45,202 nucleotides of DNA from the NCBI GenBank assembly GCA_017620205.1, contig JAFZQX010000045.1, positions 1 to 45,202 on the forward strand, read 5' to 3'. The position numbers and the translations under genes were made by a program. The stretch's first letter is position 1. Each line of letters begins with the position of its first letter. The notes beneath the pieces were generated by a model, which saw only the letters and a list, made by a program, of their open reading frames with translations, was not told the origin of the DNA and searched no databases. Source of the stretch: Clostridia bacterium. GTDB lineage: Bacteria > Bacillota > Clostridia > UMGS1883 > UMGS1540. This document shows, piece by piece, positions 14,191-32,005 of this stretch.

Positions 14191-14220
14191 TCTGTCTATG
14201 CCACCACAATATCAAAATCT

Positions 14221-16402: not shown

Positions 16403-16410
16403 CCTAAAAT

Positions 16411-17508
16411 CTATTGTCCGTCTATAGCCTTTTTTGCGTCATTAACCGCGCGTTCAAACGAATAGTTTTTGTAAATATCCGAAAAAGCGTTTTGGCTTAT
16501 TTCGTCATATTTTTCACTTGATATTGCGCGCTCTGCCGCCGCATATATTCCCTCTGAATTGTTTTCACGGATATAAAATCCGTTTCGGTCATCTTTTATT
16601 ATATCCGCAATTGAACTTACGGGGCTTGCGATGCAGGGGATTCCCATGCTCATTCCTTCCAGGATTGTATTGGAAACGCCTTCTGTGTCGGTGGGGTGCA
16701 GGAGATACTTCCAACGCTTTAGAATATCCCATTTATCTTTGGGGTCTACCCAGCCGAACATTTTGATGCTGCAGTCCAATCCGTTTTCGTAAATATATTT
16801 TTTGCATTCGTCCGATAGAGGCCCGTTTCCGACAATTTCCATAGACCAGTCCGGGTGTTTTTGCAAAACTTTTTGAAAAGCTTTAATTGATTCCAAAACA
16901 TATTTGCCGTTTGCGATTCTGCAAAGCATTCCGACGGTGCTTGTTCTTTCGCAGCTTATGTCTCTTTGCTCCGTATAAAGATGTATCACCTTTCGCCTTT
17001 CATTACGGATGCTGCCTTCCCATTCGTCAAACACTTTTGCGTTTTCCGCGCAAATATAATCCGCGCGGTTTGCAAGGCGGCAAATTCTTTTAAAGGTTTT
17101 GTTTTCCGATTTGTTATTTCCCGATATTTTTTGGGGGTTTCCGTAAATAAAATAATATGTTTTTGCGCGTTTTATTTTTGCCGCGAGATAGGGGAGAATC
17201 ATACCGTCTGCGATCCAGAAAAACACGTTGTCATGTTTTTTTATAAGCTTTAAAGCTTTACAGCCTGCTTTTATCTGAAATGAAAAATACATTAATATAT
17301 TCAGTATTTTATTTGAATTTCTGTTTCTGTTAACCGAGTGAATTTCCGCGCCCGAATCACCGAAAAAATCACAATCAACATTTCCCGAGAGCAAAATACA
17401 TTTTTTTGCGTCAGCTTCGGATATTACTTTTATAAACTTATATAAAGATACTGAACTCGACTTATTTGTTTCGGGAGTCGCGTTTGAAATTACAATGTTT
17501 CTTTTCAT
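16411..17508 (-). CDS. GT4-family glycosyltransferase
   Basis: A 365-residue GT-B enzyme. The C-terminal half shows the retaining GT4 core: VGMLCRIANGKYVLESIKAF, WSMEIVGNGPLSDECKKYI, FGWVDPKDKWDILK, then HPTDTEGVSNTILEGMSMG. The last carries the E-x7-E nucleotide-sugar motif. The N-terminal domain is diverged and lacks the usual GG loop, so its acceptor is not predictable. It likely adds one sugar to the lipid-linked repeat on the inner membrane face. A good AGGAG ribosome site precedes the ATG, and the start overlaps the stop of the upstream GT4 gene by 4 bp. Confidence 0.87.
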   Translation of the reverse strand: MKRNIVISNATPETNKSSSVSLYKFIKVISEADAKKCILLSGNVDCDFFGDSGAEIHSVNRNRNSNKILNILMYFSFQIKAGCKALKLIKKHDNVFFWIADGMILPYLAAKIKRAKTYYFIYGNPQKISGNNKSENKTFKRICRLANRADYICAENAKVFDEWEGSIRNERRKVIHLYTEQRDISCERTSTVGMLCRIANGKYVLESIKAFQKVLQKHPDWSMEIVGNGPLSDECKKYIYENGLDCSIKMFGWVDPKDKWDILKRWKYLLHPTDTEGVSNTILEGMSMGIPCIASPVSSIADIIKDDRNGFYIRENNSEGIYAAAERAISSEKYDEISQNAFSDIYKNYSFERAVNDAKKAIDGQ

Positions 17509-18659
17509 TTTTGCTCCTGATTAATACTTTCAAAGCATTCCGTAATTTTACCCATGTAGTTTTCAAGATTGTTCTCGTGCGCAAATTTTATTCCGTTTGC
17601 CACATATTCCTCTTTGTTTCCAAACTCTTTAAGTATATTTGCGCTTATTGTATCAATATTCTGCGTGGTTTCGTCAAAGACGCAGCCGCTTTTTGAGGCT
17701 TTTAACATTTCTCCCATACCGAGCGTTGAAGTTGCAATTATCATACAACCCGCAGACATAGCTTCAAGCGCTGCGAGAGACATGCCTTCGTTTGAGGGGA
17801 TAATAACGGCGTCGGCGGCTTTCAGCCAGTCCCAAACATTGTTTTGCCTGCCTGCAAAATGAATATTGTTTTGAACGCCGAGCTTTTCGGCAAGCAAACG
17901 GAGCTCTTCGGAATATTCCGGTTCGGAAGAGCTGCTTCCGATAAAAACAGCATGAACATTTCCGTATTGTTTATTCATCGAAGCAACAAGACGGACGGTA
18001 AAATCCTGCCGTTTTGTCGGATGAATAATTCCTATGTGCTCTATTGTTATGTTTCCGTCTTTTTTCAAAAACGGAAAGCTTTCTTTTACATTGGCGGCGT
18101 TACCCGAACTGTATTTTTCAAAATCAACCGGATTATATATGGTTTTAACTTTAGGTTTTCCTTTGGGATTTGTAATTTGGTCCCCAACTACGTTTGCAAC
18201 CGCCAGTATCATTTTCACACATCCGAAAGAGCTGCAAAAATTAATCAGCTTCTTTGTGGGGCCGTCTTCAAAATTGTGATGTAAATGCCATATTACACGT
18301 TTGCTCTTTAGTGTGCCGCAAACTGCAGACCAGGGAAGAGATGCAGGTCCCGGTGCGTATATTATATCGGTTTTTTCTTTTTTGATTATACGGTTTATTT
18401 TGCAAATTGCCCGCGCCGACATGGCAAAATATTTAAAAATAACGCTTTTTCCTTTTACTCCGGCAGGAAGAGATGCGTTTCCGAAAAGATAATACTTGTA
18501 TCCCTTATCTTCAAGCTCCCGTGATAATGCGCCTGTTTCGGGTATAGCCCAAACGACATCAAAATCACCTGTTTTTCTGAGCATATCGGAGACTAAAAGA
18601 CTCATTTTCTGACCGCCGTTTATTTCGGAAAGCGTTTCAATCAGCAAAACCTTTTTCAT
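17505..18659 (-). CDS. GT4-family glycosyltransferase
   Basis: A 384-residue GT-B enzyme that starts MKKVLLIETLSEINGGQKMS, with the GGQ loop expected of GT4 members. Other marks are HLHHNFEDG in the N-terminal domain, IYNPVDFEKYS at the hinge, IEHIGIIHPTKRQDFTVRL, and the donor-binding PSNEGMSLAALEAMSAG with E-x7-E. It is one of three GT4 enzymes in this operon. The number of transferases (three GT4, one GT2, one initiating transferase) predicts a repeat unit of up to about five sugars. It is 2 bp from the phosphodiesterase-like gene upstream and overlaps the downstream GT4 gene by 4 bp. Confidence 0.88.
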   Translation of the reverse strand: MKKVLLIETLSEINGGQKMSLLVSDMLRKTGDFDVVWAIPETGALSRELEDKGYKYYLFGNASLPAGVKGKSVIFKYFAMSARAICKINRIIKKEKTDIIYAPGPASLPWSAVCGTLKSKRVIWHLHHNFEDGPTKKLINFCSSFGCVKMILAVANVVGDQITNPKGKPKVKTIYNPVDFEKYSSGNAANVKESFPFLKKDGNITIEHIGIIHPTKRQDFTVRLVASMNKQYGNVHAVFIGSSSSEPEYSEELRLLAEKLGVQNNIHFAGRQNNVWDWLKAADAVIIPSNEGMSLAALEAMSAGCMIIATSTLGMGEMLKASKSGCVFDETTQNIDTISANILKEFGNKEEYVANGIKFAHENNLENYMGKITECFESINQEQK

Positions 18660-18661
18660 AA

Positions 18662-20101
18662 TTAAACTTCACCCATGATTATTTGGTAAACATCTGTAAG
18701 CTCGTACTGCTCTTTTTCAAGCTTTATACCTTTTGCGCCCAAAAAAGCTGTTTCATACCTATGAGCGCCCGGCGAAAACTGATGCATAAAGCCTTTCTTT
18801 TCAAAAATAACGTCGCCGAGATCCCACGTGGCGCCAAACCGTTCATCAAGCTGAAAAATGATTTCCGGATACCTTGAAAGGTATTCGCCTTTATATAAAG
18901 TATTGGTTCTTCTTATCCATTTGAAAGCGGGAACACCCTCGCCGTCTATCTCATATTTTTGAAGTTTACTTATTATTTCGTCACAAAGCGCGTCAATATT
19001 TTCATTATTCTGCGCCTTTACTCTTATTCCGCCGTAGCTGTAATTTTTCATTGCGGATAAGTCGCTTAAATATGCCACGGTATTGTCCCAATCAAAATCG
19101 GAGGAAGATACAAAAACCTTTTTCCAAAGGGGAATCTTTTTAAGGATAAACTTCATCGGTTTCGGCAAACCGAATTTTTTGACAAACCCGATTCCCATAT
19201 TTCTGATTGTTTTTTTTATGCTGAATCCGCTTTTTTTGCTTGCTTTGTTATTGGCGGATTTCGGTGCCAGATAGCCTTCACGTTTAAGCATTTCATTTAT
19301 TCTCGCGCACCAAACGGGCCTTGCTCCGTGACCGTGATCGCTTATTACAAGCATCGGAGTATCGCCCGCCATAGCGGAAAACTCGCGAAGCACACAGTCA
19401 ACTTTTTTATACATATCAATAATTACCGACCTATATTTGTTGTCTCCCGGATATTCGGGGTGATTTGGATCGCAGTTTCTCCAAAATGCGTGCTGAATGC
19501 CGTCAACCGTTGAAAAATAAGAAAAAAAGACATCGCAGTCTTCCGTTTCAAGCGCCAGCTTTGTAACCCTGTATTCTTCTTCGAATTTTTTAAAGAAGTC
19601 GTCGCGCACAAGAGAAAGCTTCGATTCGGATGTATACTCAAGCTCGCTTCCGAGTATGGCGGCATCCGGTTTATAAAAATCAGCTTTTTCCTTAGGGAAA
19701 GTGTTTATTTTGCCGTCATACGCTCTTGTTATCATCAGACCCGCTATGTCCCAGCCGCGTTTGATGTTCATAGGGAAGAGAACCACATTTTTATAGCCTT
19801 TTTGAGTTAATCTATCCCAAAATACCTTGCCTTTGAATTCATCGTCATCAAATTCATGTGCTTTATATGTGTTATCCTTATCGCCAACATTTACAAAATT
19901 AATGATTCCGTGAACACTCGGGTCATCGCCGGTGAAAATAGTGGCCCAAGCGGGTGTGGTATCCGCAGGAAAAACGCTTCTCATGCGCGGATATCCGTTG
20001 TTTTCAAGCAAGTAATTCAGAAAAGGAAGCTCGGCGCGGTGTGATGCGACATATTCATAGTCCATTCCGTCAACGCCTATTATCAACAGTTTATTTACCA
20101 C
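18662..20101 (-). CDS. Type I phosphodiesterase / alkaline-phosphatase-superfamily protein
   Basis: A 479-residue protein of the nucleotide pyrophosphatase/phosphodiesterase group. Metal-binding features are the N-terminal LLIIGVDGMDYE (D11, D14), the nucleophile region ADTTPAWATIFTG (T48/T49), and the late VISDHGHGARP. No signal peptide or membrane segment is seen, so it works in the cytoplasm. Start is GTG with AAAGAAAGGA about 10 bases ahead. Family members remove or transfer phosphate groups from nucleotides, phospholipids or glycans. Together with LicD and the kinase-like gene next to it, it suggests a phosphate-containing step in repeat-unit assembly. The exact substrate is unknown. Confidence 0.8.
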   Translation of the reverse strand: MVNKLLIIGVDGMDYEYVASHRAELPFLNYLLENNGYPRMRSVFPADTTPAWATIFTGDDPSVHGIINFVNVGDKDNTYKAHEFDDDEFKGKVFWDRLTQKGYKNVVLFPMNIKRGWDIAGLMITRAYDGKINTFPKEKADFYKPDAAILGSELEYTSESKLSLVRDDFFKKFEEEYRVTKLALETEDCDVFFSYFSTVDGIQHAFWRNCDPNHPEYPGDNKYRSVIIDMYKKVDCVLREFSAMAGDTPMLVISDHGHGARPVWCARINEMLKREGYLAPKSANNKASKKSGFSIKKTIRNMGIGFVKKFGLPKPMKFILKKIPLWKKVFVSSSDFDWDNTVAYLSDLSAMKNYSYGGIRVKAQNNENIDALCDEIISKLQKYEIDGEGVPAFKWIRRTNTLYKGEYLSRYPEIIFQLDERFGATWDLGDVIFEKKGFMHQFSPGAHRYETAFLGAKGIKLEKEQYELTDVYQIIMGEV

Positions 20102-20120
20102 AATATATAATTCCTTTCTT

Positions 20121-20783
20121 TTACTTTTTCAAAACAGCGTAAACTGTGCGCATTACCTCATCAAGCATTGCCTGCTTATCCTGACTTCCCGAAATAACAG
20201 CAGCTTCATACATTTTTGCCACCTCGTCATAAAGCGGCTCTCTTATTTCGAGATACAGCGGATCGGGTGTGTCATCCTTTCTTGAAAAGCAAATATCAAC
20301 AGGCGTTTTGATATAAATAAGCCTGTCAGCTTTGGGAGAATGCTTCCATTTCCCGTTCATTGTTTTTACCATGTATTCTTTTCCTAAACCGAGATTTGCC
20401 GCATATGTAACAACGTTATCATAAACATATCTGTCAACAAGCAGGGTATATCCCAGGGCACGCCTTAGCCTTATCCTGAAAAGAATCTGCGCCTTGAATT
20501 CGCACGTGGTAAGAAATGAAAACACATTATATACTAAGCCTTTGTTTGCCTGTTTTCTGAGATTTTCAAGATATGTTTTATAGTCTGTATATTCGTTGCT
20601 GTTGCCTTTCATCAGCAGTTTTTTTGCAAGCTTTATTAAACCGCGTGTTAAAACGGCAACATATGCCGCACGCACAATTTTTACCTTTAAACCGTCTTTT
20701 TTCAGCTGCTCAAATGCATAATCTATACAAGTTGATTTTCCGGAGCCGTCAAGCCCCATAAAACAAATAACAGGTTTTTTCAT
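20121..20783 (-). CDS. Thymidylate-kinase-like P-loop kinase
   Basis: A 220-residue P-loop protein with Walker A GLDGSGKST (residues 10-18) and the DRY element of thymidylate kinase-like proteins (LLVDRYVYDNVVTYAANLG). There is also a lid-type arginine region around ICFSRKDDTPDP. Housekeeping dTMP kinases are of similar size, but the long basic segment at about 40-90 and the operon position speak for a specialised kinase, which such clusters often carry. A possible substrate is a sugar, lipid or nucleotide intermediate. It sits between a GT4 gene (1 bp away) and the phosphodiesterase-like gene (19 bp away). Ribosome site AAAAGGATG supports the start. Confidence 0.75.
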   Translation of the reverse strand: MKKPVICFMGLDGSGKSTCIDYAFEQLKKDGLKVKIVRAAYVAVLTRGLIKLAKKLLMKGNSNEYTDYKTYLENLRKQANKGLVYNVFSFLTTCEFKAQILFRIRLRRALGYTLLVDRYVYDNVVTYAANLGLGKEYMVKTMNGKWKHSPKADRLIYIKTPVDICFSRKDDTPDPLYLEIREPLYDEVAKMYEAAVISGSQDKQAMLDEVMRTVYAVLKK

Positions 20784-20784
20784 T

Positions 20785-21744
20785 TTAACATCCTTTTGTT
20801 ATAACACTTTCTGCGAAATCTGCCGCGTCATCCCAGCTTAAAAAGTTTTTCAAAAGCGGTTTTTCGCTTTTTTCTGAAACCGCCTTTCGGAGCGCCTCGT
20901 TTATCTGACCGCTGTTTTCAATTTCTGTTACCGCGCCTTCTTTGGCGCAGTCAATTTCTTTTTTGCCGATGACCTTATATGACACGGCTGCTGTGCCGCA
21001 AGACAGAGCTTCCATAATTGAAAGCGGAACGGAAATAACATAGTTTCCGCTTTTGGTGGGGAACAGATATGCATCGGCCATCTGATATATTTCCTCAATG
21101 TGTTCAAGATAGCCTTTAATAATTTTAACTCCGTGACTCTCCAAAAACTCTTTTTGTGCGGGATTGTCAAATATGCCGCTGTCTACAAAAAGTCTTTCAA
21201 ATTTATCGGCGTCAACAAGCGCCAAATCTTCAACACCGCGCCCTTTTGACGCATGCCCCACGTGAATCACAAGAGGCTTTCCGGGGCTTATTTCATATTT
21301 CTTTTTAAGCTCCTCTGCGTATTGCTTTGATACGGGGCGGAATTTTTCCGCGTCAATGCCGGCACTGAATTTAACCTTCTCTTTATTGTCTGAAAGGGAA
21401 ATGTCTTTTACATCTTTTTCGGATAAATATAAATAACTGCATTTCAGCGGTTTTTTGTTTACCTTTGAAATAAAGCCGTCCTCAGGCTTTTGAACGGTTA
21501 CAAGCCACACATTTTTATTAAACACCGAAGCGAGATGTATAAGCCAATACATTTTTGATACGGCTCTTACAAAAAACAAAACGCAGTCACTCTGGCGGGC
21601 GCCGCGAATAAGCCCTGCTATATCGCGCACGGAGGTGGTTGTGACCGTGTGTTTTTGTGAAAACCTTTTTGAAAAATGCGTAGCAATATTGTTCATCCCC
21701 TCGTTGAGGAGACCGTTGTTTGTACAAACAATGTGTATCTTCAT
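20785..21744 (-). CDS. GT4-like glycosyltransferase, diverged
   Basis: I start the gene at ATG 21744 (MKIHIVCTNN, 319 residues). A longer in-frame reading would run into the upstream gene, and this ATG has AGGA 9 bases before it. The C-terminal half has the GT4 layout: KPLVIHVGHASKGRGVEDLA, then IYQMADAYLFPTKSGNYVIS, then VPLSIMEALSCGTAAVSY. The first Glu of the usual E-x7-E motif is absent, leaving only the second (MEALSCG). The N-terminal domain is short. It probably transfers a sugar, but the missing Glu lowers confidence that it uses the normal donor mode. Confidence 0.78.
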   Translation of the reverse strand: MKIHIVCTNNGLLNEGMNNIATHFSKRFSQKHTVTTTSVRDIAGLIRGARQSDCVLFFVRAVSKMYWLIHLASVFNKNVWLVTVQKPEDGFISKVNKKPLKCSYLYLSEKDVKDISLSDNKEKVKFSAGIDAEKFRPVSKQYAEELKKKYEISPGKPLVIHVGHASKGRGVEDLALVDADKFERLFVDSGIFDNPAQKEFLESHGVKIIKGYLEHIEEIYQMADAYLFPTKSGNYVISVPLSIMEALSCGTAAVSYKVIGKKEIDCAKEGAVTEIENSGQINEALRKAVSEKSEKPLLKNFLSWDDAADFAESVITKGC

Positions 21745-21748
21745 ATTC

Positions 21749-23245
21749 TTAATCCTGTTTTGTATCGGTAGGGTCTTTTGCTTTTTTAAACACACTTTTG
21801 CTGAGCGTTGCAAACCCTTTGAGTGAGCGTTTAAGGTCTTCGATATCCGTAAGGCCCATCTTTATTCTGTGCAAAATATACCGCGGACGCAGGTAATACT
21901 TTTTTCTTGCATACGCGCAAAAATCAACATATTGCTGAGCCGATATGCCGGGAGTGTTTATAACACAGTTTATGGAGCCGTCCTCCTGACAGTATTCCTC
22001 ATACTTGCCCGAGATATATCCGTTTGATTTAGCCCAATCAAACGCCACTGTTCCGGGATAGGGAATAAGGGGGTAGAACTGTGCTGTATCCGTATTGAAA
22101 CGCAGGGCCGCTTTAAGAGTATCACGCATCGTTTCCATTGTTTCGCCTTCGTTGCCGACCATATAGCACGCGTGTACAAGCAGCTTCGCTTTATGCGCGT
22201 TTTCAATATATTTTTCTATCTGTTCAACCGTAGTACCCTTGCGGATATTATTTAGTATTTTTTGGTCAACGCTTTCAATACCCGGTATAATAAGCTTGCA
22301 GCCGGCTTTTTTCATGAGCTTCATTGTTTCAAGGTCAAGGTTTACCCTTGCGTTGCACATCCAGGGGAGTTTCTTTCCAAGACCTTTTTCTATCATTTTA
22401 TTGCAAAATTCCAAAACCCTTTGTTTATTGACCGTAAATGTATCGTCCTCTATGATTATTTCTTTTACACCGGGCAGGTTTTTTATAATATATTCGTATT
22501 CGGAAATTACGTTATCAATGCTGCGCAGGCGGTATTTGTGACCGTGCATAGTCTGCGGATACACACAGAAATTACACCTTGCCGGACATCCTCTGCCCGT
22601 GAATATCTGAATGGCAGGGTTGTTGGATGCGGCAAAATAATAATCGTTAATATCTAAATAATCGTTAATAAATTCCGCCGCGAACGGTATTTCGTCCAAA
22701 TCCTCAAAATAAGGCCTGTCGGGATTTGTGATGATTTCATCACCTTTTCTGAATGTCAGCCCGAGAACTTCTTCAACGGGCGTTTTATCGCGGATCGCCT
22801 CCGCAAGCTTTAAAACTGTTATATCATATTCATGACGCGCCACGCCGTCTATACGTAAGTCATAACCGAGCGTTTCCTCCGCTGTGGAGGATGGGTGCGT
22901 CCCTACAAGCAAAATAAACGCGGCGGGATACAAATCCTTTAATCTGCAGCCGAAGCGGACGTCCGACATAATAGAGGGCGTGCTTGTGTCAAGCACGAAA
23001 AGCTCCGTATCGGAGCACTCGGACGATACCCATTTAAGCGTTTTTTCTTCATCTGTTCTCGTGGCGCAGCTGTCAAAAAAGCGAATGTCAAATCCGTTTT
23101 TTTTCGCGTATGCGGCTGAATACATCAGCCATAACGGATAATAGATTTCACCGCTGTGACCTATCGAGGGGCTTCTGGATTCTCTTGAAAACTTTCCGTA
23201 TTCTGTTTTAAACGGGGGATTTATAAATGTTATTTTCATTTTCAT
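21749..23245 (-). CDS. B12-binding-type radical SAM protein
   Basis: About 498 residues. The N-terminal domain resembles the cobalamin-binding fold found in B12-dependent radical SAM enzymes (KITFINPPF, LFVLDTSTPSIMSDVRF, AFILLVGTHPSSTAEETL), although the His of the DxHxxG base-on motif is not evident. The radical SAM core has the CxxxCxxC cluster GRGCPARCNFC (cysteines about 210, 214, 217), then IEDDTFTVNKQRV, RVNLDLETMKLMKKAGCKLI and PGIESVDQKILNNIRKGTT. It probably modifies a sugar or lipid carrier by methylation or rearrangement. The start is ATG 23245 or 23239, and the gene overlaps the GT2 gene by 38 bp. Such enzymes appear in some Clostridia glycan clusters, but the reaction cannot be named. 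Confidence 0.85.
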   Translation of the reverse strand: MKMKITFINPPFKTEYGKFSRESRSPSIGHSGEIYYPLWLMYSAAYAKKNGFDIRFFDSCATRTDEEKTLKWVSSECSDTELFVLDTSTPSIMSDVRFGCRLKDLYPAAFILLVGTHPSSTAEETLGYDLRIDGVARHEYDITVLKLAEAIRDKTPVEEVLGLTFRKGDEIITNPDRPYFEDLDEIPFAAEFINDYLDINDYYFAASNNPAIQIFTGRGCPARCNFCVYPQTMHGHKYRLRSIDNVISEYEYIIKNLPGVKEIIIEDDTFTVNKQRVLEFCNKMIEKGLGKKLPWMCNARVNLDLETMKLMKKAGCKLIIPGIESVDQKILNNIRKGTTVEQIEKYIENAHKAKLLVHACYMVGNEGETMETMRDTLKAALRFNTDTAQFYPLIPYPGTVAFDWAKSNGYISGKYEEYCQEDGSINCVINTPGISAQQYVDFCAYARKKYYLRPRYILHRIKMGLTDIEDLKRSLKGFATLSKSVFKKAKDPTDTKQD

Positions 23246-24299
23246 CAAACTCTTTCATTACGGATTTTACCGTTTCAATCATTTCACAGCTGTTAAGATG
23301 ACGGCTTTTAAACGGAATGCTGCAAATACCGGTAAGCGTTCCTACTCCGTAGCTTATATGTAACGTCAGAAAGAAAAAAGGAATCAATAAAAAAAACGGA
23401 TTGAATCCTTTTTTGGCAATCGACGCGGCTGTGCTTATCAGAGCAAAAGCAAGATATGCGCCCCACATTAAAGCTCCCGGCTGCCATATTCCGCGTGCTG
23501 CCAAAAAGCCTGTCGCAATTATGCCGATTAAAAAAGCAAAAGGAATTAAATGATAAGCTGAGATACAGCCGGGACATACGCCGAGAGTAAGACCTATCCA
23601 GTAGCCGTTTCCGTATTTCTGTTTTATCATTTTTCTGAAACTGCTTCTTGCATATTGATAAGATAATATTTGCGGATCAAAACAGAGCTTATATCCCGCT
23701 TTACGTATTCTGAAATGAAGCTCGTTGTCTTCCGTGCGCAGCAGTTTTTCGTTGAATCCGCCTGTGTCTGCAAAAACACTCCGCCTGTATGCGCCGTGAA
23801 ACATTGTTTTTACATACTCTTTTTTTGTTCCGCTTCTTGCCTTGCCTATGCTGCTCCCGAAAAGAGAGTTTTCGGCTTCAAGCAAAGCCTTTCCCCAAAG
23901 AGTTTTGTTTTCAATGATACACGGACGGACTCCACCCGAAACATATTCTCCGCTTTGAAGATTTTTCATATTAAGTTCGATAAAATCACAGGGAATGCTT
24001 GTGTGTGCGTCAACCCTTATGATGACATCGCAAACCGAATTTATAATCGCGACATTCCAGCCCGATGCCTGAATTCTTTTAGGGTTATCGGCAACCGTAA
24101 CAGAAATATATTCGTCTTTGTTTTCCTTCGCGAAATTCTCCATGATTTTTTTTGTCGCGTCCGAAGAACCGCTGTCTACCAAAACGACTTGGGTTTTTTG
24201 GTGAGGGTATGTCTGACTATAGACGTCTTCCAGTAGTTTTGGAAGGATGTTCTCTTCGTTTAATGCAACTATACATAAAGATACTGTTTCAGGATACAT
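23208..24299 (-). CDS. GT2-family glycosyltransferase, ExoA-like, with C-terminal membrane segments
   Basis: A 363-residue GT-A enzyme. The catalytic half has SLCIVALNEENILPKLLEDV, VVLVDSGSSDATKKIM, the DxH-type metal motif in IIRVDAHTSIP, and ED in LLRTEDNELHFRIRKAGYKL. The C-terminal about 110 residues form three to four membrane segments. This layout matches ExoA-type glucosyl- or galactosyltransferases that add an early sugar on the membrane. It overlaps the radical SAM gene start, and a GGAG ribosome site precedes it. Its place next to the initiating transferase fits an early step in repeat-unit assembly. Confidence 0.87.
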   Translation of the reverse strand: MYPETVSLCIVALNEENILPKLLEDVYSQTYPHQKTQVVLVDSGSSDATKKIMENFAKENKDEYISVTVADNPKRIQASGWNVAIINSVCDVIIRVDAHTSIPCDFIELNMKNLQSGEYVSGGVRPCIIENKTLWGKALLEAENSLFGSSIGKARSGTKKEYVKTMFHGAYRRSVFADTGGFNEKLLRTEDNELHFRIRKAGYKLCFDPQILSYQYARSSFRKMIKQKYGNGYWIGLTLGVCPGCISAYHLIPFAFLIGIIATGFLAARGIWQPGALMWGAYLAFALISTAASIAKKGFNPFFLLIPFFFLTLHISYGVGTLTGICSIPFKSRHLNSCEMIETVKSVMKEFDENENNIYKSPV

Positions 24300-24314
24300 T
24301 TTTTCTCCAATTCA

Positions 24315-25004
24315 TTACTGACGCTTTAATACGGAAAAAACTGTATTAAACATTATGCCTATATCTCTTAATAAACCGAACTTTCTGATAGACTCCAAAT
24401 TCAGCTTCATTTTTTCCGGCAATACTTGTTCGATATATGTTTTTTCAACGTCCTCCGAAGAACTCAGTAATTCACTTTCGTTTTTATATATTATACTTGT
24501 TTCGTTCGTGACACCTGCAGGCATCAGAAGTGTTGCGTAGTATTCGGGTTTGTACTGCTCCACATATTTTATGACTTCGGGCCGTGTGCCGACAAAGGAC
24601 ATATTCCCCTCTAAAATATCAAACAGCTGGGGGAGTTCGTCAAGACGGTATTTGCGCAGCTTCCGGCCTATTTTTGTTATTCTGCCGTCATCGCTTACGG
24701 TAAGTGCGGTGTCTTTTGTATCGGCGTCACTTGACATCGTTCTGAATTTATGGATCTTAAAATGCTTGCCGTATGAAGTAACGCGCTCCTGACGGTAGAA
24801 CGCCGTTCCGGGACTGTCTCTTTTTATAAGCAGAGCAATAACAGCCATGGGTACGGCCGTAATTACAACTAAAATGAATGACACTAAAAAGTCAAAAATC
24901 CGCTTAAAAATAAGCTTTATTCTCTTTTTATTCAGTATTTCCCAATATTCCCTGACCTGCGGACATTTCATGTACGCGGGCAGATCCTCCCATTTTTTAA
25001 GCAT
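24315..25004 (-). CDS. Initiating sugar-phosphate transferase (bacterial sugar transferase family)
   Basis: A 229-residue monotopic phosphoglycosyltransferase. Features are KRIFDFLVSFILVVITAVPM (basic entry and a single membrane helix at about 35-60), RDSPGTAFYRQERVTSYGKH, FKIHKFRTMSSDAD, the catalytic RLDELPQLFDILEGNMSFVG (Asp-Glu pair), and TRPEVIKYVEQY. These enzymes move a sugar-1-phosphate from a UDP-sugar onto undecaprenyl phosphate and start the repeat unit. The donor sugar is not readable. The N-terminus (about 30 residues) is longer than minimal PglC-type forms. It is 15 bp from the GT2 gene and 21 bp from the aminotransferase gene, in the middle of the operon. Confidence 0.92.
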   Translation of the reverse strand: MLKKWEDLPAYMKCPQVREYWEILNKKRIKLIFKRIFDFLVSFILVVITAVPMAVIALLIKRDSPGTAFYRQERVTSYGKHFKIHKFRTMSSDADTKDTALTVSDDGRITKIGRKLRKYRLDELPQLFDILEGNMSFVGTRPEVIKYVEQYKPEYYATLLMPAGVTNETSIIYKNESELLSSSEDVEKTYIEQVLPEKMKLNLESIRKFGLLRDIGIMFNTVFSVLKRQ

Positions 25005-25025
25005 AGTAAGACCAGAGTCCTTTAC

Positions 25026-26375
25026 TTATTTCATATATTGCTTTAACACTTCTTTAAATACATCGCATATATATTCAACATCTTCGTCGTTGAGCATTGT
25101 GTTAAACGGAATGGATATGGTATTTTTGTAATAATCGTAAGAATTCGGAAAATCGGAAATATCAAAACCGAGGTGTTTATATGCGGTCATCATCGGAAGC
25201 GGTTTATAATGAACGTTTGTTGATATTCCTTCGGCGGCAAACTTTTTTATGATTTCGTTTCTTTCTTTTTCGTCTGTTGACGGTATACGGATAGTGTAAA
25301 GATGCTTGCCGCTTTCCATATAATCGGTGTGGTGAACTAAATGTGAGGCACCGAGCGCATCGAAAGTTTGGTCATACCTTGCCATAATTCTTGCTCTTTC
25401 GCGGAGAAGTTTTAAATAGCGGTCAAGCTGACGTATTCCTATAGCCGCTATAACATCTGACATGTTATACTTATACCAAGGCCCTATAATGTCATATTCC
25501 CACTTTGCAGCTTGGTTTTTGGAAAATGCATCTTTGTCCTGCCCGTGGAGAGACATAAGCTGAAGCATGCTGTATATTTCTTTGATGTCAACGCCGTCGA
25601 TCGGTGCCCAGGCTGCCGCGCCGCCTTCCGCCGTAGTGAAATTTTTAACCGCATGGAACGAAAAGCTTGTGGCGTCTGCTATGGCGCCGCACATTTTTCG
25701 GGTGGGCTCTGAAAGATGCCGGCTGCCCGAGTGTGACACAACGCGCGATGCACCGAGCGCATGTGCGCCGTCGGCAATAACCGCTGCTCTGCCGAGAGAT
25801 TTTTGGATTTTTGACGAAAGATCCCCAAGGACTGTGCCGTCCGATCCGGCCGCTTTAAACAGGCTCCGTTTTCGTTCGGCAATTTCAAAGATGCGGTCAT
25901 AGTCGCATATAATACCGCCGAAATCAACGGCGACAATAGCTTTTGTTTTTTCTGTTATCGCAGCTTCCAACTTATCGTAATCCATTTCGGGAGAATGGGT
26001 TTTGGGATCTCCACTCTTTTGGATATCTACAAATACAATTTTTGCGCCGCAATGTTCGACAACAGACGCAGTTGCTGTATATGTATAAGCCGGAACGATT
26101 ACTTCATCTCCCGGACCGACGCCTAAAATGCGAAGATTAAGCTCTTCGGAAGCAGTTGCGGAGTTTAGGCAGGCGACACGTTCTTTCCATTTGTCCCGAT
26201 CCGCATCGGTATCTATATCTGTTCTGCCTGTTTCGATATATGCCGCAAGTCTGCGCTCCAGCTTTTTTGTTTTGACGCCTGTTGTGATCCATCCGGAAGT
26301 CAAAGCGTTTATGACTTCGTCAATTTCAAGCTGTCCTATATCCGGAGGATTAAAGCTGATGTTCCTTTTTTCCAT
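25026..26375 (-). CDS. DegT/DnrJ/EryC1/StrS-family sugar aminotransferase
   Basis: A 449-residue PLP enzyme. Motifs are NSATASEELNLRILGVGPGD, EVIVPAYTYTATASVVEHCG, the cofactor Asp in VIADGAHALGA (D202), and the Schiff-base lysine in SFHAVKNFTTAEGGA (K244). Two unusual insertions make it longer than the typical 370-400 residues: about 50-65 (TDIDTDADRDKWK) and about 175-195. Such enzymes form amino sugars from 3- or 4-keto nucleotide sugars, often for glycan repeat units. The AGGAG ribosome site precedes the ATG by 10 bases, and the start overlaps the Wzz/BY-like gene by 26 bp. Confidence 0.9.
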   Translation of the reverse strand: MEKRNISFNPPDIGQLEIDEVINALTSGWITTGVKTKKLERRLAAYIETGRTDIDTDADRDKWKERVACLNSATASEELNLRILGVGPGDEVIVPAYTYTATASVVEHCGAKIVFVDIQKSGDPKTHSPEMDYDKLEAAITEKTKAIVAVDFGGIICDYDRIFEIAERKRSLFKAAGSDGTVLGDLSSKIQKSLGRAAVIADGAHALGASRVVSHSGSRHLSEPTRKMCGAIADATSFSFHAVKNFTTAEGGAAAWAPIDGVDIKEIYSMLQLMSLHGQDKDAFSKNQAAKWEYDIIGPWYKYNMSDVIAAIGIRQLDRYLKLLRERARIMARYDQTFDALGASHLVHHTDYMESGKHLYTIRIPSTDEKERNEIIKKFAAEGISTNVHYKPLPMMTAYKHLGFDISDFPNSYDYYKNTISIPFNTMLNDEDVEYICDVFKEVLKQYMK

Positions 26376-27777
26376 TCAAATCGCGCTCCTTTTTTGATTT
26401 GAAAAGATGAAGTTTTTTTGTACGCTTCTCTTTAACAATATCATGCCAATTGCGTTTGAAATTAACTAAGCCGCCGATAATCGGAATGCCGGATTCTTTA
26501 AGACGCTCAACGGCAATTTTTACGTTGTCAACATACGCCTTGTCAAACGCCGTAACAAACAGGACTGCGTCCGCAATTCTGTTTAGTTCGAGCACTTCTG
26601 CGTCTTCTCCGACAGGCATGGCGTCAATAAATACATAATCGTAGCCTTCCATGGCGGATTTAAGAACATCCAGCATCTCACCGTTTAAGTTTGGAGGATT
26701 ATCGTCAAGCACAACGGGCAATAAGCCAAGGTAGCCGCCTACGTTTACAATTGCGTCAATTTTATCGGATTCTCCGTTATAAAGAGAGTTCAGCGACTGC
26801 TCCGGCTTTAAGTCAACCTCAAACATAGAAGCGAGCATGGGCTTTTTGAAATTGCAGTCGATAAGCAAGGTTTTCTTTCCGATTCCGGCAAACTGCGCTG
26901 CAACCCCGGAAACCAATTTTGAAACACCTTCGCCATGTTCCGTTGATGTAAAATACAGTTTGTTACAGCCTTCTTTTTCCATTCTGTTGATAATAATATG
27001 AGATGCTGCCGCAATTTCTTCTTTGGCGGGTGAGGTGTAATCCGAAAGAGGCTTTTGTTTTGCGAAATCAGCGTCGGTTTCGATACTTTCAAAGATTTCG
27101 ATTCCGAAATAGTCTTCCATATCTGCTTCATTTATTATTGTGGGAGCGATAAGGAATCTCACAATATACCATGCCGCACCTATAAGCAGGCAAGCCAAAA
27201 CCGTAAAAATAAGCAGTGAAGCATTTATTGAGCCTGATATAAGCGTAGCTCTAGGAGGATCAACAACGGAAACTCTGCCAAGCTTTATTGTTTCCGGCAA
27301 TTCCGAATCGACAATCTCGATAAGCGCGGTCATCATACGCAGACCTTCGGTTTCGCTGCGCCAACGCAAAGACATCTCAATAATTTGTGTGTCTTCATAC
27401 CGTACAATTTTAAGCTTTTTCCTGATATCCTTGGGCTCAATGCCAACAAGCTTCAGCTTTTCGATCATACGGTTTAAGGTGTTGTTGCTTTGAAAAATAA
27501 ATAGGGCGGGATCTGTTATATCCTCTGCGAGTTTTATATCGTTCTGGTTGGGATCCTGACTTCTGGATATAAAAGTGCCTTCACGGTTTTGAGCAACAAC
27601 CGCAACCGATGATTTAATATTGTATTCTCTTAATATTTCGCCGCGCAAATATCCGGCGCCGACAAGAATAATACCGATTATTAATCCGACAAAAGTAAAT
27701 GATACAATAAATCTCCAGCCTTTAATCAGGGGATAGAAAATATCATCTATGCGGATTCTTTTTTCATCACTTTGCAT
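26350..27777 (-). CDS. Wzz chain-length domain fused to degenerate BY-kinase
   Basis: A 475-residue protein with two membrane segments (about 21-42 and 188-209) around an extracellular Wzz-type loop, followed by a cytoplasmic CpsD/CapB-like ATPase domain. Walker A' LLIDCNFKKP (D307) and Walker B YDYVFIDAMPV (D385) are present. The Walker A reads HGEGVSKLV where active enzymes have GEGKST: the catalytic Lys is Val 285. The C-terminal tail (KKLHLFKSKKERDLNGKK) lacks the tyrosine cluster that BY-kinases phosphorylate. It therefore looks like a chain-length regulator that lost kinase activity. It overlaps the MotB-like gene by 11 bp and the aminotransferase gene by 26 bp, so it is tightly coupled to both. 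Confidence 0.87.
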   Translation of the reverse strand: MQSDEKRIRIDDIFYPLIKGWRFIVSFTFVGLIIGIILVGAGYLRGEILREYNIKSSVAVVAQNREGTFISRSQDPNQNDIKLAEDITDPALFIFQSNNTLNRMIEKLKLVGIEPKDIRKKLKIVRYEDTQIIEMSLRWRSETEGLRMMTALIEIVDSELPETIKLGRVSVVDPPRATLISGSINASLLIFTVLACLLIGAAWYIVRFLIAPTIINEADMEDYFGIEIFESIETDADFAKQKPLSDYTSPAKEEIAAASHIIINRMEKEGCNKLYFTSTEHGEGVSKLVSGVAAQFAGIGKKTLLIDCNFKKPMLASMFEVDLKPEQSLNSLYNGESDKIDAIVNVGGYLGLLPVVLDDNPPNLNGEMLDVLKSAMEGYDYVFIDAMPVGEDAEVLELNRIADAVLFVTAFDKAYVDNVKIAVERLKESGIPIIGGLVNFKRNWHDIVKEKRTKKLHLFKSKKERDLNGKKEHQL

Positions 27778-29341
27778 TGTTTGTACTCATCCTTTTTTTT
27801 CGATTGATATAAACTATAATAAGTATTATTGCAAATATAAGCAAAACTGCTGCGGCAACCATAGCGGTATCGTGTGACGTCCAGATAAATATTGAAGCGT
27901 GCTGGAGTTTTGCGTTGTCACTTATGATAACATTTATTTTTGACGATTCTTTGGATGCGACTGCAATTGTATAATTGCCGGGCTCCAAGCCTTCCAGAAT
28001 ATAATCCTGACCGGAAGACATCCACGTGTTCAGAAGCTTTCCGTTCGCGTCATAAACTACCACATCAAAGCCTTCCGCAAGTCTCATGAGGATTACGTCT
28101 TTTATGCTGACAACGAGCCTTGTCATATAAATGCTCTCTGATTTTTCCGCATGGCTTTTATCGTCTATTCTGCCGTTTGCGTCAACATCAAAGTTTAGGT
28201 CGCTTATTTTGCTTTTGTATTTATCGGGCAAAGATGTAATTTTAGCTTCATATTTGCGGTCTTTTTCAAGATCCGTAACCGTAATTAAACCGTCTTTATC
28301 AGTTGTGAACTCGCCCTTTTCGGCTATCTTGACTACAACGCCTTCGATAGGCTCGCTGTTGTATTCGTCAAAGATTTTTATTGTCATCTGTGTTTTTTCA
28401 CACTCAACAGTATGAATCTCGTCTTCTTCAGCGCTTGAAACGCTGACGTCAAGCGTGTTTTCGCTTACCGCATAGTACTGCTTTGCGGATTTCTGGCTGA
28501 CGGTGTAACGGCCGAGGTGCAGCTCGTGAGATTCTCCGTAACCGTTTTCATCACAAATAATCTCGTCTACAACATCTCCCTGGCGGTAACGGACGGAGCC
28601 GTCAACAGATACGATGTCATCGGCGGCAAGTACTTCATAAACGCCGTCGGAAACAGGCTGCTTTGTCTCTTCGTCTTCCGCCTGAATGCGGATAATACTC
28701 TTAAGAGGAGACATCAAAACACGAAGGTTATAAGGATATGTCCAGTCGTGCTGCGAGTTTATTTCAAACACAATATCTCTTGAAACACTAAAACCGTCCG
28801 GAGCGTTTAAATTGTGAAGCGAATACTGACCGTAAGGAATCTTTTCCGGCAGGAAAAACGTTCCGTTTTCTGTTGTTTCAAATTGCTGATAAGATGTTTT
28901 TTTCGGGTAATATGTATAGAGGGTTTGAAGGCCTCCGCCGCTGTATTTTTCGGAATAAAGCTCAAATTTTATTCCGCGTTGTTTTATAACCTGATCTGTT
29001 TCTTCGTCAACCACCGTTACGAAAACAGCAACTTTATCGCGGCCTTGCGACGGTATATCGCTGAACTCAGGCGTTTCTTCGTCTTCGCCGCCGCCACCGC
29101 CGCCACCGCCGGCGTTGTTGTTATCGTAATCGTGTTCTTTGGGGCTCGTATTATAATCAGTGGCATATTCGTCCAGGTTGTCTATATCATAATAAGGAAA
29201 ATCATTCTTTCTGGTTTGTGAAATGTATAACAGCAAAAGCATCATTATAAGAAGCACAATCATCAAAATTGCCGCCATAAGGTCAGTGAAAGTTTTCCAA
29301 TAACTTTCCTCTGTGCTTTTTTTTCTGTTTGTTTTTTTCAT
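27767..29341 (-). CDS. MotB/ZorB-like membrane protein with Cna-B/SpaA-like extracellular stalk
   Basis: A 524-residue protein. Residues 14-41 (SYWKTFTDLMAAILMIVLLI then MMLLLLYI) match the plug/transmembrane segment of MotB, ZorB and ExbD relatives, with Asp 20 at the place of the proton-binding Asp. After it come an acidic spacer, an eight-Gly run (78-85), and four beta-sandwich repeats (about 104-197, 214-303, 318-390, 407-485). The repeats have SpaA/Cna-B features such as TENGTFFLPEKIPYGQYSLH and CDENGYGESHELHLGRYTV. A second hydrophobic segment (492-512) and a basic tail (NRKKR) end the protein. No OmpA-like peptidoglycan domain and no LPXTG motif are seen. The gene lies 17 bp after the MotA-like gene, and its stop overlaps the Wzz-like gene. 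Confidence 0.75.
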   Translation of the reverse strand: MKKTNRKKSTEESYWKTFTDLMAAILMIVLLIMMLLLLYISQTRKNDFPYYDIDNLDEYATDYNTSPKEHDYDNNNAGGGGGGGGEDEETPEFSDIPSQGRDKVAVFVTVVDEETDQVIKQRGIKFELYSEKYSGGGLQTLYTYYPKKTSYQQFETTENGTFFLPEKIPYGQYSLHNLNAPDGFSVSRDIVFEINSQHDWTYPYNLRVLMSPLKSIIRIQAEDEETKQPVSDGVYEVLAADDIVSVDGSVRYRQGDVVDEIICDENGYGESHELHLGRYTVSQKSAKQYYAVSENTLDVSVSSAEEDEIHTVECEKTQMTIKIFDEYNSEPIEGVVVKIAEKGEFTTDKDGLITVTDLEKDRKYEAKITSLPDKYKSKISDLNFDVDANGRIDDKSHAEKSESIYMTRLVVSIKDVILMRLAEGFDVVVYDANGKLLNTWMSSGQDYILEGLEPGNYTIAVASKESSKINVIISDNAKLQHASIFIWTSHDTAMVAAAVLLIFAIILIIVYINRKKRMSTNNAK

Positions 29342-29358
29342 AATAACATCCCGCTAAA

Positions 29359-30885
29359 CTAATTATATTGTATCAGCTTTTCAAATTCTTCTTTTGAAGC
29401 ACCGTTTGCCAGATATTTTCCGCAGCCGTATTTGCATCCTGCTTTTATCAGCTCAGCAACCTGCTTCGCGGACGAAATGTTTTCCGCAATACAACCGGTG
29501 TTCTTTTTCCTTGTATAATCAATTACCGTTTTAATATACTCTGCGTCAGATAAGTTATCAACATTTATAATTATTTCGTCGGCTGATATGTTTTTCAGCT
29601 GGTCAAGCGAGCCGTCAAAACCTTTTATAATGACTTTGAAGCCTTTTTTCAAAAGCTGTTCCTCTGTTTTTTTGGCTTCTTTTTCGCACGTTATATAACA
29701 ATCGAAAGCTATTGCTATTTCAATTGCTCTCGGCTCGAGAGAATACTTTTCTGCTAAAGCGCTCATGCAGTCGGCGATATCAAGCGCCATCAGATCTGTT
29801 TTTGAAACGCTCAAAACAACGGGGATTGTCTGATTTCCGTTTGCTTTCCATTCGCTTATGCAGCTGCAGGCATTATCCCAAAGCTTTCTGTTTAGCTTTG
29901 TTATATATCCGTTTGATTCGATAACCGGCATATATACGGAAGGGTGAATCTCACCTAAATCACTGTGCATCCAACGAAGCGCGCAAATGGCTTTAACCGT
30001 TTTTTTCTCTGCAAGTTCCAATATGGGCTCAAACACGAAACCTATTTCACCCTTTTCGGCGGCAGACAGAATATCTATCATTAAGCGCTGTCCACGTATG
30101 CCGCTGTTGTCCGCGCCGTTTAGCATTATGCTGCTGTTGTCTTTTATAATGCTCAGCGTTTCTATTGTTTTCTTTGCGTTTTGCAGCTGTTCAACTCTCA
30201 GAAGCTCGTCGGGAGAAGGTTGTATTTTCAAATGATATTCCTCAATAAAAACCTGCATTTGTCTGAGCATCGAATTCCATATCAAACGGTAAATAACATT
30301 AAAAAGTATTGAAAGAATAACGCCTATTATTGAAGTGTAAAAAGCTGTTGCAATACCTTTTAAAAGCACTTCAATGCTTGTCATGGTTGCTTCAACGGTA
30401 CTGAATGTTACGGCGTTTACACCTGTTATCAAACCGAGAAAAGTTCCGAGCAAGCCAAGCGATGTCAGTGTTCCCGCAATCTGGAGAACAACGCCGCGCC
30501 AGCTTCTGATTGAGACGGAGTCTTCATTGATATAATCTTCAATATCGCTTATTACAATGCCCGTTTCCTTTTGCTTTTCAGCATTTTCAATATAGGAGTC
30601 AAAAAGCTCGTCGAGGTCGCGCTGATAAAAAAACGGTTTAGTATTGGCAACCGAAGTCCAGATGCTGTCAGAGTTTATTTCCTTTGCCTTTTGTATGCTT
30701 TTAAGCCCGGTTTTAAATCCTTTTATGTACATAATACTCGGCGCGATACCGAAAACGGCGCCAAATAAAATAAACGCGCCCATAACTACCGTAACCGCAA
30801 GCGAGAGCAGGTCCGGAGCCATAGCTATGAACGCCAAACAAATACTTCCCAATAATACCGATAAAATAACAACAGTCTTTTTCAT
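29359..30885 (-). CDS. MotA/TolQ/ExbB/ZorA-type channel fused to degenerate EAL domain
   Basis: A 508-residue protein. The N-terminal half has four membrane segments (about 4-21, 28-52, 131-156, 177-203). TM3 contains AGTLTSLGLLGTFLGLITGV, the GLLGT-x2-G core typical of MotA/ExbB/TolQ/ZorA ion channels. TM4 is GIATAFYTSIIGVILSILFN. A cytoplasmic EAL fold follows (about 265-505): GFVFEPILELAEKKTVKAIC, LRWMHSDLGEIHPSVYMPVIES, and a late GCKYGCGKYLA. Catalytic positions are lost: EAL is ICA (300-302) and DDFGTG is KGFDGS. An enzyme-dead EAL may bind c-di-GMP or a protein partner. It is the first gene of the operon, with GAGG 7 bases before its ATG and a strong promoter about 140 bp upstream. Confidence 0.82.
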   Translation of the reverse strand: MKKTVVILSVLLGSICLAFIAMAPDLLSLAVTVVMGAFILFGAVFGIAPSIMYIKGFKTGLKSIQKAKEINSDSIWTSVANTKPFFYQRDLDELFDSYIENAEKQKETGIVISDIEDYINEDSVSIRSWRGVVLQIAGTLTSLGLLGTFLGLITGVNAVTFSTVEATMTSIEVLLKGIATAFYTSIIGVILSILFNVIYRLIWNSMLRQMQVFIEEYHLKIQPSPDELLRVEQLQNAKKTIETLSIIKDNSSIMLNGADNSGIRGQRLMIDILSAAEKGEIGFVFEPILELAEKKTVKAICALRWMHSDLGEIHPSVYMPVIESNGYITKLNRKLWDNACSCISEWKANGNQTIPVVLSVSKTDLMALDIADCMSALAEKYSLEPRAIEIAIAFDCYITCEKEAKKTEEQLLKKGFKVIIKGFDGSLDQLKNISADEIIINVDNLSDAEYIKTVIDYTRKKNTGCIAENISSAKQVAELIKAGCKYGCGKYLANGASKEEFEKLIQYN

Positions 30886-31024
30886 AATACCTCACATTTT
30901 TATCCAAAAGCAGCGGCAATGTATAAAAATCTTCAAAGATTACAAAAGCGTGCTTTTTTAGTTAAAACAATAATCTGCCGATAATTATGCAAATTTGTAA
31001 AATGAGTATAGTATTCCTACTTAA

Positions 31025-31053
31025 AATATATCAAAAAAATGCAGAATTGTCAA
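31025..31053 (-). promoter_or_regulatory. Promoter of the polysaccharide operon
   Basis: On the minus strand TTGACA (31048-31053) and TATATT (31025-31030) are separated by exactly 17 bases, a near-consensus vegetative promoter. Transcription should start near 31018, leaving an untranslated leader of about 130 bases before the MotA-EAL gene. That leader has only short stems (for example AATCT/AGATT followed by a T-run) and no c-di-GMP riboswitch that I can recognise. Confidence 0.75.
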
Positions 31054-31286
31054 TATTTTTTTGTGAAATTTGTTTATTTTTGATTGCGCAATTATCAATG
31101 GCGGAGAACATTTTTGTAAAAGATAAAAAAGCGGTGAATGACAGGAACGGAAAAATGAATGGAAGCTACAAAAAACGCACATTGTTTGTGATATTCTATA
31201 TTCGTAAAGAAAAATAATTCAATTTGTAGGTTTTATATATGAAAAGCAGGTTATTACGGTGTTAAGAGAGAACTAATGAAAAAGTG

Positions 31287-31295
31287 TGGTATGAT
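31287..31295 (+). promoter_or_regulatory. Extended -10 promoter for nucleotidase gene
   Basis: TGGTATGAT is an extended -10 element (TGN plus TATGAT) with no good -35 box 17 bases upstream. Transcription would start near 31302, about 150 bases before the gene. The rest of 30886-31300 is AT-rich, holds the minus-strand promoter, and shows no convincing gene. Confidence 0.45.
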
Positions 31296-31301
31296 AAAAA
31301 C

Positions 31302-31453
31302 AGGGAAGAGGATGAAAAAAACTCTGTTGGAACCCCGAACTGTACACGAAAGAGCTGCGAATACAGCAAAACTGATTCAGGAAGTGTACAAATAACTGTC
31401 CGTTTTATGGTACATCTTTTTTGATATATTATATATGGAAAGGGGATGTACCT
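31302..31453 (+). promoter_or_regulatory. Structured leader with two exclusive pairings
   Basis: TGTACAC (31341-31347) can pair with GTGTACA (31384-31390), enclosing two small hairpins: GCTG/CAGC with a CGAATA loop, and CTG/CAG around ATT. The same second strand (TGTAC, 31385-31389) can instead pair with GTACA (31410-31414), which is followed by six T (31417-31422). This resembles an antiterminator/terminator switch. The terminator stem is short (five pairs plus a wobble). No known riboswitch class is recognised. The ribosome site GGAAAGGGGATG lies just before the gene. Confidence 0.4.
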
Positions 31454-32005
31454 ATGAAAAAGTTTAATATTTTGTGCGACGCGGACGATACCATACAGGA
31501 GCTTATGCCGTATTGGCTCGGAGAGCTTAACGGAAAGTATAATTTAAACGTTAAAAAAGAGGATATAAAATCCTGGGATATTATGAAAGCTTTTCCCACG
31601 CTTTCTGAGGAAGAGGTTTTTGAGCCTTTATACAGGGATGACTTTTGGGATACGACAACGCCCGTTGAAGGCAGCGCGTATTACCTTAAAAAGCTTGTAA
31701 GTGACGGACATAATCTGCTGATAGTTACAGCGAGCAATCCCGAAACGTTTGATGCAAAAACGCGAAAACTTATGGAAATGTTCCCATTTTTAAAGAAAGA
31801 ACAAATTATAAGGGAAAACAATAAACAAACGGTTGACGGTGATATTTTAATAGATGACGGCGTTCACAATCTTTTGGGCGGCAGGTATAAAAAGTTTTTA
31901 TTCAATCAGCCAAACAATTCGCTCTTTAACGAAAAAGAACACGACATCACAAGAGTTTTTTCATGGAAAGAGATTTACGAAAGGATAAGCCGCATGGCGG
32001 CGTAA
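31454..32005 (+). CDS. 5'(3')-deoxyribonucleotidase-like HAD phosphatase
   Basis: ATG 31454 gives 183 residues and sits 8 bases after AAAGGGGATG; an upstream TTG is not needed. The sequence has HAD motif I CDADDT (nucleophile D9, acid/base D11), motif II in LIVTASNPETF, and motif IV in DILIDDGVHNLLGG. The cap and core pattern (WDIMKAFPTLSEEEVFEPLY) matches the NT5C-type deoxyribonucleotidases that dephosphorylate dNMPs or UMP. It likely balances nucleotide pools in the cytoplasm. The phosphatase gene starts 9 bp after its stop, suggesting a two-gene operon. Confidence 0.82.
   Translation: MKKFNILCDADDTIQELMPYWLGELNGKYNLNVKKEDIKSWDIMKAFPTLSEEEVFEPLYRDDFWDTTTPVEGSAYYLKKLVSDGHNLLIVTASNPETFDAKTRKLMEMFPFLKKEQIIRENNKQTVDGDILIDDGVHNLLGGRYKKFLFNQPNNSLFNEKEHDITRVFSWKEIYERISRMAA

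Follow-up and report, generated by a model that had tools for sequence, protein, structure and literature searches.

Ion-driven motors of the MotAB type are at work in swimming, gliding, secretion, outer-membrane upkeep and phage defense, and to our knowledge none in Gram-positive bacteria is known to serve polysaccharide assembly. The known c-di-GMP brakes, of the YcgR type, act as separate proteins. In Myxococcus xanthus, the AglRQS motor, which works with Nfs in assembly of the spore coat, moves an exported capsule-type polymer (PMC3858216), and EcpK, a Myxococcus pseudokinase that is the partner of a co-polymerase, has been proposed to act as a scaffold (PMC12004946).

The stretch of DNA analyzed here (the window; 45,202 nucleotides of a Clostridia bacterium, GenBank assembly GCA_017620205.1, contig JAFZQX010000045.1) encodes a MotA/ZorA-type channel subunit joined to a complete EAL fold. 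This is a real fusion, for which chance is excluded, and it stands beside a MotB-like gene and a gene for a Wzz-type polysaccharide co-polymerase. The original prediction did not count a MotA-EAL fusion among the established families. In line with this, a search of open-access journal papers returned none on such a fusion or on a MotAB-Wzz unit, and the terms EAL, polysaccharide and Clostridia are absent from the main text of a recent survey of MotAB and its nonflagellar relatives (PMC12505986).

With the flagellar MotAB stators this locus shares a channel subunit of the MotA_ExbB fold and a MotB-type helix with an Asp. Unlike in those stators, the MotB-like partner lacks an OmpA domain, and the MotA part scores 40 bits versus about 86-127 for the flagellar-length MotA proteins of the class. 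A flagellar stator was considered and rejected on account of this weak score and because the source genome has neither FliG (no FliG_C match) nor a second MotA_ExbB gene, the fusion being its sole MotA-type gene. Nine fusion-bearing genomes were likewise devoid of a MotA match of flagellar strength (best, 37.8 bits). The nearest characterized channel to the MotA-like half, by sequence, is ZorA, from the ZorAB motor of the Zorya antiphage systems (PDB 8qyd and relatives). However, ZorA has a long helical tail where the fusion has its EAL domain, and instead of the OmpA domain of ZorB the window partner has a SpaA array followed by a second membrane helix. Zorya carries effector genes, whereas the window unit pairs with a polysaccharide co-polymerase.

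AglRQS-Nfs is the nearest working precedent, an ion-driven motor of the MotAB/TolQR type that works with an exported capsule-type polysaccharide. Nevertheless, it spans the envelope of a Gram-negative bacterium and includes several parts in the periplasm and outer membrane; neither an EAL fusion nor a SpaA array is described for it (PMC3858216), and it is not known to share one operon with a Wzz/BY-kinase, as the motor genes of the window do. The third gene of the window unit likewise combines a Wzz domain with a BY-kinase fold, as in the Wzc/CapAB-type co-polymerases (PCP-2) and EcpK, and its loss of the Walker A Lys and of the Tyr tail is similarly pseudokinase-like; in contrast to the PCP-2 proteins, its gene is at these loci always accompanied by a pair of MotAB-type genes, and the long charged tails of its relatives have no Tyr cluster. 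Finally, degenerate EAL effectors of the FimX, LapD and YdiV type also use an EAL fold with an altered site for binding or for protein contacts, but their fusion to an ion-channel subunit is not described in the literature searched.

The fusion protein and its operon

The fusion is the first gene of an operon that occupies positions 12754-30885 on the minus strand of the window, in which three genes at the head are followed by polysaccharide genes. The features, all on the minus strand, are as follows.

31025 to 31053, minus strand: promoter-like TTGACA-17-TATATT with TG, which precedes the start codon by about 140 bases (a consensus match only)
29359 to 30885, minus strand: 508-aa fusion of a MotA/ZorA-like channel subunit and an EAL domain, gene 1 of the operon (Pfam, structural model, 17 homologous fusions)
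30166 to 30885, minus strand: MotA/ExbB/ZorA-type membrane part of the fusion, residues 1-240 (Pfam 4.4e-10, ZorA as top PDB match, conservation)
29362 to 30099, minus strand: EAL-fold domain of the fusion, residues 263-508, with a degenerate active site (Pfam 2.7e-28, Foldseek TM 0.86, motif alignment)
27767 to 29341, minus strand: MotB-like subunit, 524 aa (Pfam SpaA 2.2e-21, ZorB N-terminal match 5e-9, structural model, Foldseek)
26350 to 27777, minus strand: Wzz-type chain-length determinant with a BY-kinase-like ATPase (NCBIfam matches, motif inspection)
25026 to 26375, minus strand: DegT/DnrJ/EryC1 sugar aminotransferase (Pfam 1.1e-74)
24315 to 25004, minus strand: initiating bacterial sugar transferase, Bac_transf (Pfam 5.8e-52)
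23208 to 24299, minus strand: glycosyltransferase of family 2 (Pfam 3e-19)
20785 to 21813, minus strand: group 1 glycosyltransferase
16411 to 18659, minus strand: two group 1 glycosyltransferases (16411-17508 and 17505-18659)
15053 to 16402, minus strand: Wzy_C polymerase/O-antigen ligase-like protein (Pfam 2.3e-13)
12754 to 14190, minus strand: Wzx-like flippase, Polysacc_synt (Pfam 2.4e-16)

The fusion is read in one uninterrupted frame from the ATG at 30885 to the stop at 29359. Both of its Pfam matches exceed the curated gathering scores: residues 92-211 match MotA_ExbB (PF01618; 39.8 bits against a cutoff of 22.9) and residues 274-493 match EAL (PF00563; 99.4 bits against 31.3). In the N-terminal half, whose top PDB sequence match is ZorA (4e-8), the sequence GLLGTFLG occupies residues 144-151, and its G-x-L-G-T-F-x-G core is kept in all members of the family; T148 and Y183-T184-S185, which lie in predicted channel helices, are invariant or nearly so. 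The AlphaFold model gives residues 1-220 as four long helices, with low confidence there, followed by an EAL barrel (about residues 262-508) with a pLDDT mostly of 70-92, which Foldseek aligned with the EAL structure of MorA (4rnj; E 8.4e-18, TM 0.86 by target length) and with other EAL structures. The channel part with a GLLGT core and the full-length EAL fold that had been read from the letters of the window are thus both present, as is the MotB-like neighbor; the SpaA domains of that neighbor, its lack of OmpA, the co-polymerase gene and the Wzx/Wzy operon go beyond what had been predicted.

The MotB-like protein (model with a mean pLDDT of 80) consists of an N-terminal helix that bears Asp20 and matches ZorB (5e-9), a Gly-rich linker (residues 46-100), SpaA/prealbumin-like β domains (about 101-488) and a C-terminal membrane helix (489-523) that ends in a basic tail. 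An acidic residue in the helix of the B subunit is a feature of the 5:2 ion-driven rotary motors; Asp20, the residue present here, is invariant in the 20 aligned members and would be an Asp of the proton-carrying type. The β part matches Gram-positive pilins and the TIE protein of B. anthracis in Foldseek. Pfam and the model reveal no OmpA-type peptidoglycan-binding domain, the SpaA array and the C-terminal helix being found instead, and no MotB-like member has a C-terminal LPxTG; there is one LPVTG, which is not C-terminal.

The Wzz/BY-kinase protein of the window matches the NCBIfam models EpsG (1.8e-18), eps_fam (4.1e-18) and the Wzz-like polys_exp_MPA1 (2e-10), all below their cutoffs. Judged by the Walker A Lys, Walker A', Walker B and Tyr-rich tail of BY-kinases, the window copy falls short, as the Walker A Lys is replaced (GEGVSK) and the Tyr tail is absent, and the protein is probably a pseudokinase. 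The kinases of the relatives keep the Walker motifs in most cases and have no Tyr cluster; the Walker A Lys is Arg in four of the loci L109-L126. In the proteins of these loci the kinase core is followed by a very long C-terminal tail (about 490 residues at most) that is charged and of low complexity. At L118 (3790-6117) the reading frame, within which the contig ends, encodes SpaA-like domains in the C-terminal, nominally cytosolic part, and these resemble the domains of the MotB-like partner.

Positions 12754-27777 of the window hold the flippase, polymerase, initiating transferase and co-polymerase of a Wzx/Wzy-dependent locus. The operon also contains a LicD gene (14221-15060), a type I phosphodiesterase/nucleotide pyrophosphatase (18662-20101), a weakly thymidylate-kinase-like protein (20121-20783) and a B12-binding radical SAM protein (21749-23248). 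No Rfam element, riboswitches included, was detected upstream of the fusion (positions 29200-31500, E up to 1).

The MotA-like, MotB-like and Wzz/BY-kinase genes form a conserved unit

Relatives were sought with an alignment of two members as the query, taking one genome per species, which yielded 80 loci. The same fusion occurs at 17 of them, in as many other genomes (L109-L124 and L126), so that MotA_ExbB and EAL do co-occur elsewhere. These genomes belong to uncultured Clostridia, mostly from the rumen and gut, and their fusions are 521-557 aa long where the start lies on the contig (that of L124 is lost at a contig end). The fusion is rare: in a sample of 150 genomes of the L115 family one carries it, and none of the other genomes searched in the family and order to which the window belongs has it. 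A 308-aa match in a genome from the family of L115 (L216) proved to be an ordinary ZorA-like protein with a long helical tail, beside an ordinary MotB-like gene. The distant, mostly Lachnospiraceae MotA-like proteins L127-L188 were placed outside the fusion family because, of 30 scanned, all matched MotA_ExbB and none EAL. They make up a large, distinct MotA/ZorA-like family, mostly 370-620 aa long, and several of them adjoin a MotB-like gene of about 250-360 aa.

The 18 EAL domains, that of the window included, form one clade against 28 other EAL domains of the class (support 100/100), which supports a single origin for them. For nine pairs of relatives, dN/dS ranged from 0.009 to 0.18 in the MotA half and from 0.022 to 0.174 in the EAL half, that is, below 0.2 on either side of the junction. 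An assembly or frame error that joins two genes, one of the outcomes that would have undone the original prediction, is refuted, because at least 17 further genomes encode the fusion, its EAL domains are monophyletic and dN/dS is low in both halves; nothing was found in favor of such an error. In one build of the MotA-half tree the fusions form one group (87/84), and in a second build, with more EAL-less rows, this grouping was not resolved. The EAL domain would have been either added in one branch or lost in the other, between which the MotA trees do not decide.

At all 17 fusion loci the MotB-like gene follows the fusion and the Wzz/BY-kinase gene comes next (a contig end removes the third gene in one), which is also the order in the window; in 12 of them the stop of the fusion overlaps the start of the MotB-like gene by 4 bases. 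In five genomes of another genus (L100 and L211-L214) these three genes recur, in unchanged order, and the EAL domain is lacking; the identity between the window and L100 is 40% for the MotA part, 31% for the MotB-like protein and 33% for the Wzz-kinase. Because of these five genomes, the core unit is taken to be the MotA-like, MotB-like and Wzz-kinase genes. Thus, a channel subunit, its MotB-like partner and a co-polymerase constitute a conserved unit, with an EAL domain on the C-terminus of the MotA-like protein in one branch.

Beyond the third gene, among the 15 fusion loci that can be read there, a VanZ-like gene is next in 14, and within reach Wzy is present in 13 and Wzx in 10. The VanZ-like membrane protein (e.g., L112, 14051-14797), which was not seen among the annotated genes of the window operon, is a candidate fourth component. 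The EAL-less units of L211 and L212, judged from the start of the translations, lie beside sugar genes, and those of L100, L213 and L214 do not adjoin any within the 16-20 kb read. Because three of the five lie away from sugar genes, the tie of the unit to the co-polymerase is firmer than its tie to Wzx/Wzy loci.

The EAL active site

A canonical EAL domain from the same genome served as the reference for the active site. The criteria for an active c-di-GMP phosphodiesterase of the EAL type are the EAL Glu, Asn, ExxE, DD, K, D, E and Q, and the window copy fails them: EAL has become ICA, DDFG has become KGFD, K is I and Q is C, so that of 10 catalytic and metal positions one is kept, the Glu in EG(I/V)E. 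Its branch in the EAL tree is very long (1.91). In contrast, the 17 relatives keep about nine of the 10 positions, including the EAL Glu, the Asn, the first Asp of DDFG, the Lys, Asp, Glu and Gln. The first position of ExxE is acidic in all of them (Asp in three), and its second Glu is kept except in one, which has Lys. At the second Asp of DDFG all 17 have Gly, as does the window copy, and this speaks for a phosphodiesterase activity that is low or absent in the family.

It is therefore plausible, from the residues retained, that the EAL domains of the family bind c-di-GMP, and unlikely that the window protein does. The c-di-GMP-related module that had been predicted on the motor ring accordingly stands for the family and, with nine of 10 site positions lost, probably not for the protein from which it was predicted. 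The source genome encodes seven GGDEF domains and two further EAL domains, both canonical-looking. Because the EAL site and the signature residues of the kinase are both lost, the window unit could be decaying, yet its reading frames are uninterrupted and its proteins retain their folds.

A proposed ion-driven motor for polysaccharide export and its alternatives

Taken together, the results suggest an undescribed machine in which ion flow would drive or control the production of a surface polysaccharide. A proton- or sodium-driven motor of the MotAB/ZorAB type, dedicated to a Wzx/Wzy-type surface polysaccharide machine, is the reading to which we lean, by somewhat better than even chances. A MotB-type dimer, whose rigid SpaA array would be anchored back in the membrane by the second helix, would have its two N-terminal helices encircled by five MotA-type subunits (5:2). 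Ion flow would rotate the ring relative to the dimer or move the array, and the motion would be passed to a neighboring Wzz ring, where it might serve assembly and disassembly of the co-polymerase, or help to extrude or place the polymer through the thick wall. The EAL domains would hang in the cytosol beneath the ring; in most members they may bind, and perhaps slowly hydrolyze, c-di-GMP and so gate the motor, and that of the window, its site lost, would be a structural relic or a protein-binding part.

The ring might instead do no mechanical work and sense the membrane potential, the load or the state of the cell wall, switching the EAL domains and with them the breakdown or sequestration of c-di-GMP next to the polysaccharide machine. 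EAL domains are common outputs of sensor proteins, and here most catalytic residues are kept in the 17 relatives and purifying selection on the EAL half is strong. We regard this as unlikely, however, since five genomes retain the three-gene unit without EAL, so that EAL is not its core output; the Gly in place of the second DDFG Asp in every member also counts against it, as does the window copy, which keeps the unit although its EAL is dead. Less probable still is a passive scaffold, in which the MotA/MotB-like pair has given up ion conduction and serves only to organize the co-polymerase in the membrane. The window copy, in which the EAL site is lost along with the Walker A Lys of the kinase, would fit it, as would the scaffold role proposed for EcpK (PMC12004946), but the MotB-like Asp and the channel Thr/Ser of the MotA-like half are invariant or nearly so in divergent members, and a passive scaffold would not need them.

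A Zorya-like antiphage motor that sits in a capsule operon by happenstance is largely refuted and retains a very small probability. ZorA is the top match of the fusion in both PDB and PADLOC (5.9e-17 in the latter), and the N-terminus of the MotB-like protein matches ZorB. Against this, the NCBIfam models for ZorA and ZorB all score under their cutoffs (at best 51.2 bits against 100, for ZorA), the MotB-like protein is without an OmpA or peptidoglycan-binding domain, no ZorC-, ZorD- or ZorE-like effector is found among the annotated genes of the window operon, where genes for polysaccharide production are present instead, as they are at related loci; the partner is a Wzz/BY-kinase in every locus where the gene can be read. 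Membership in Zorya was rejected on the missed ZorA cutoffs, the lack of an OmpA domain and the lack of Zorya effector genes among those annotated.

Under the preferred reading, an ion-driven motor tied to polysaccharide export, the unit would be a variant of the MotAB-type motors, and it may well represent a class of its own. In its full form, a new class of rotary motor in nonflagellated Gram-positive bacteria that uses ions to power or steer Wzx/Wzy polysaccharide export, transmits force through the membrane-anchored SpaA array to the Wzz ring and is gated in one branch by c-di-GMP through an EAL domain on each subunit of its ring, the proposal is tentative, and we hold it with less than even confidence. 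The unit bears on the way in which a long polymer is pushed across a thick wall or comes to be placed on it, and the joining of a motor pair and a Wzz/BY-kinase in one conserved unit makes ion-gradient-driven polymer export directly testable. The members with an active-looking EAL, the window with a dead one and those with none provide a natural comparison series, and the EAL fusion would put second-messenger control within the motor ring itself.
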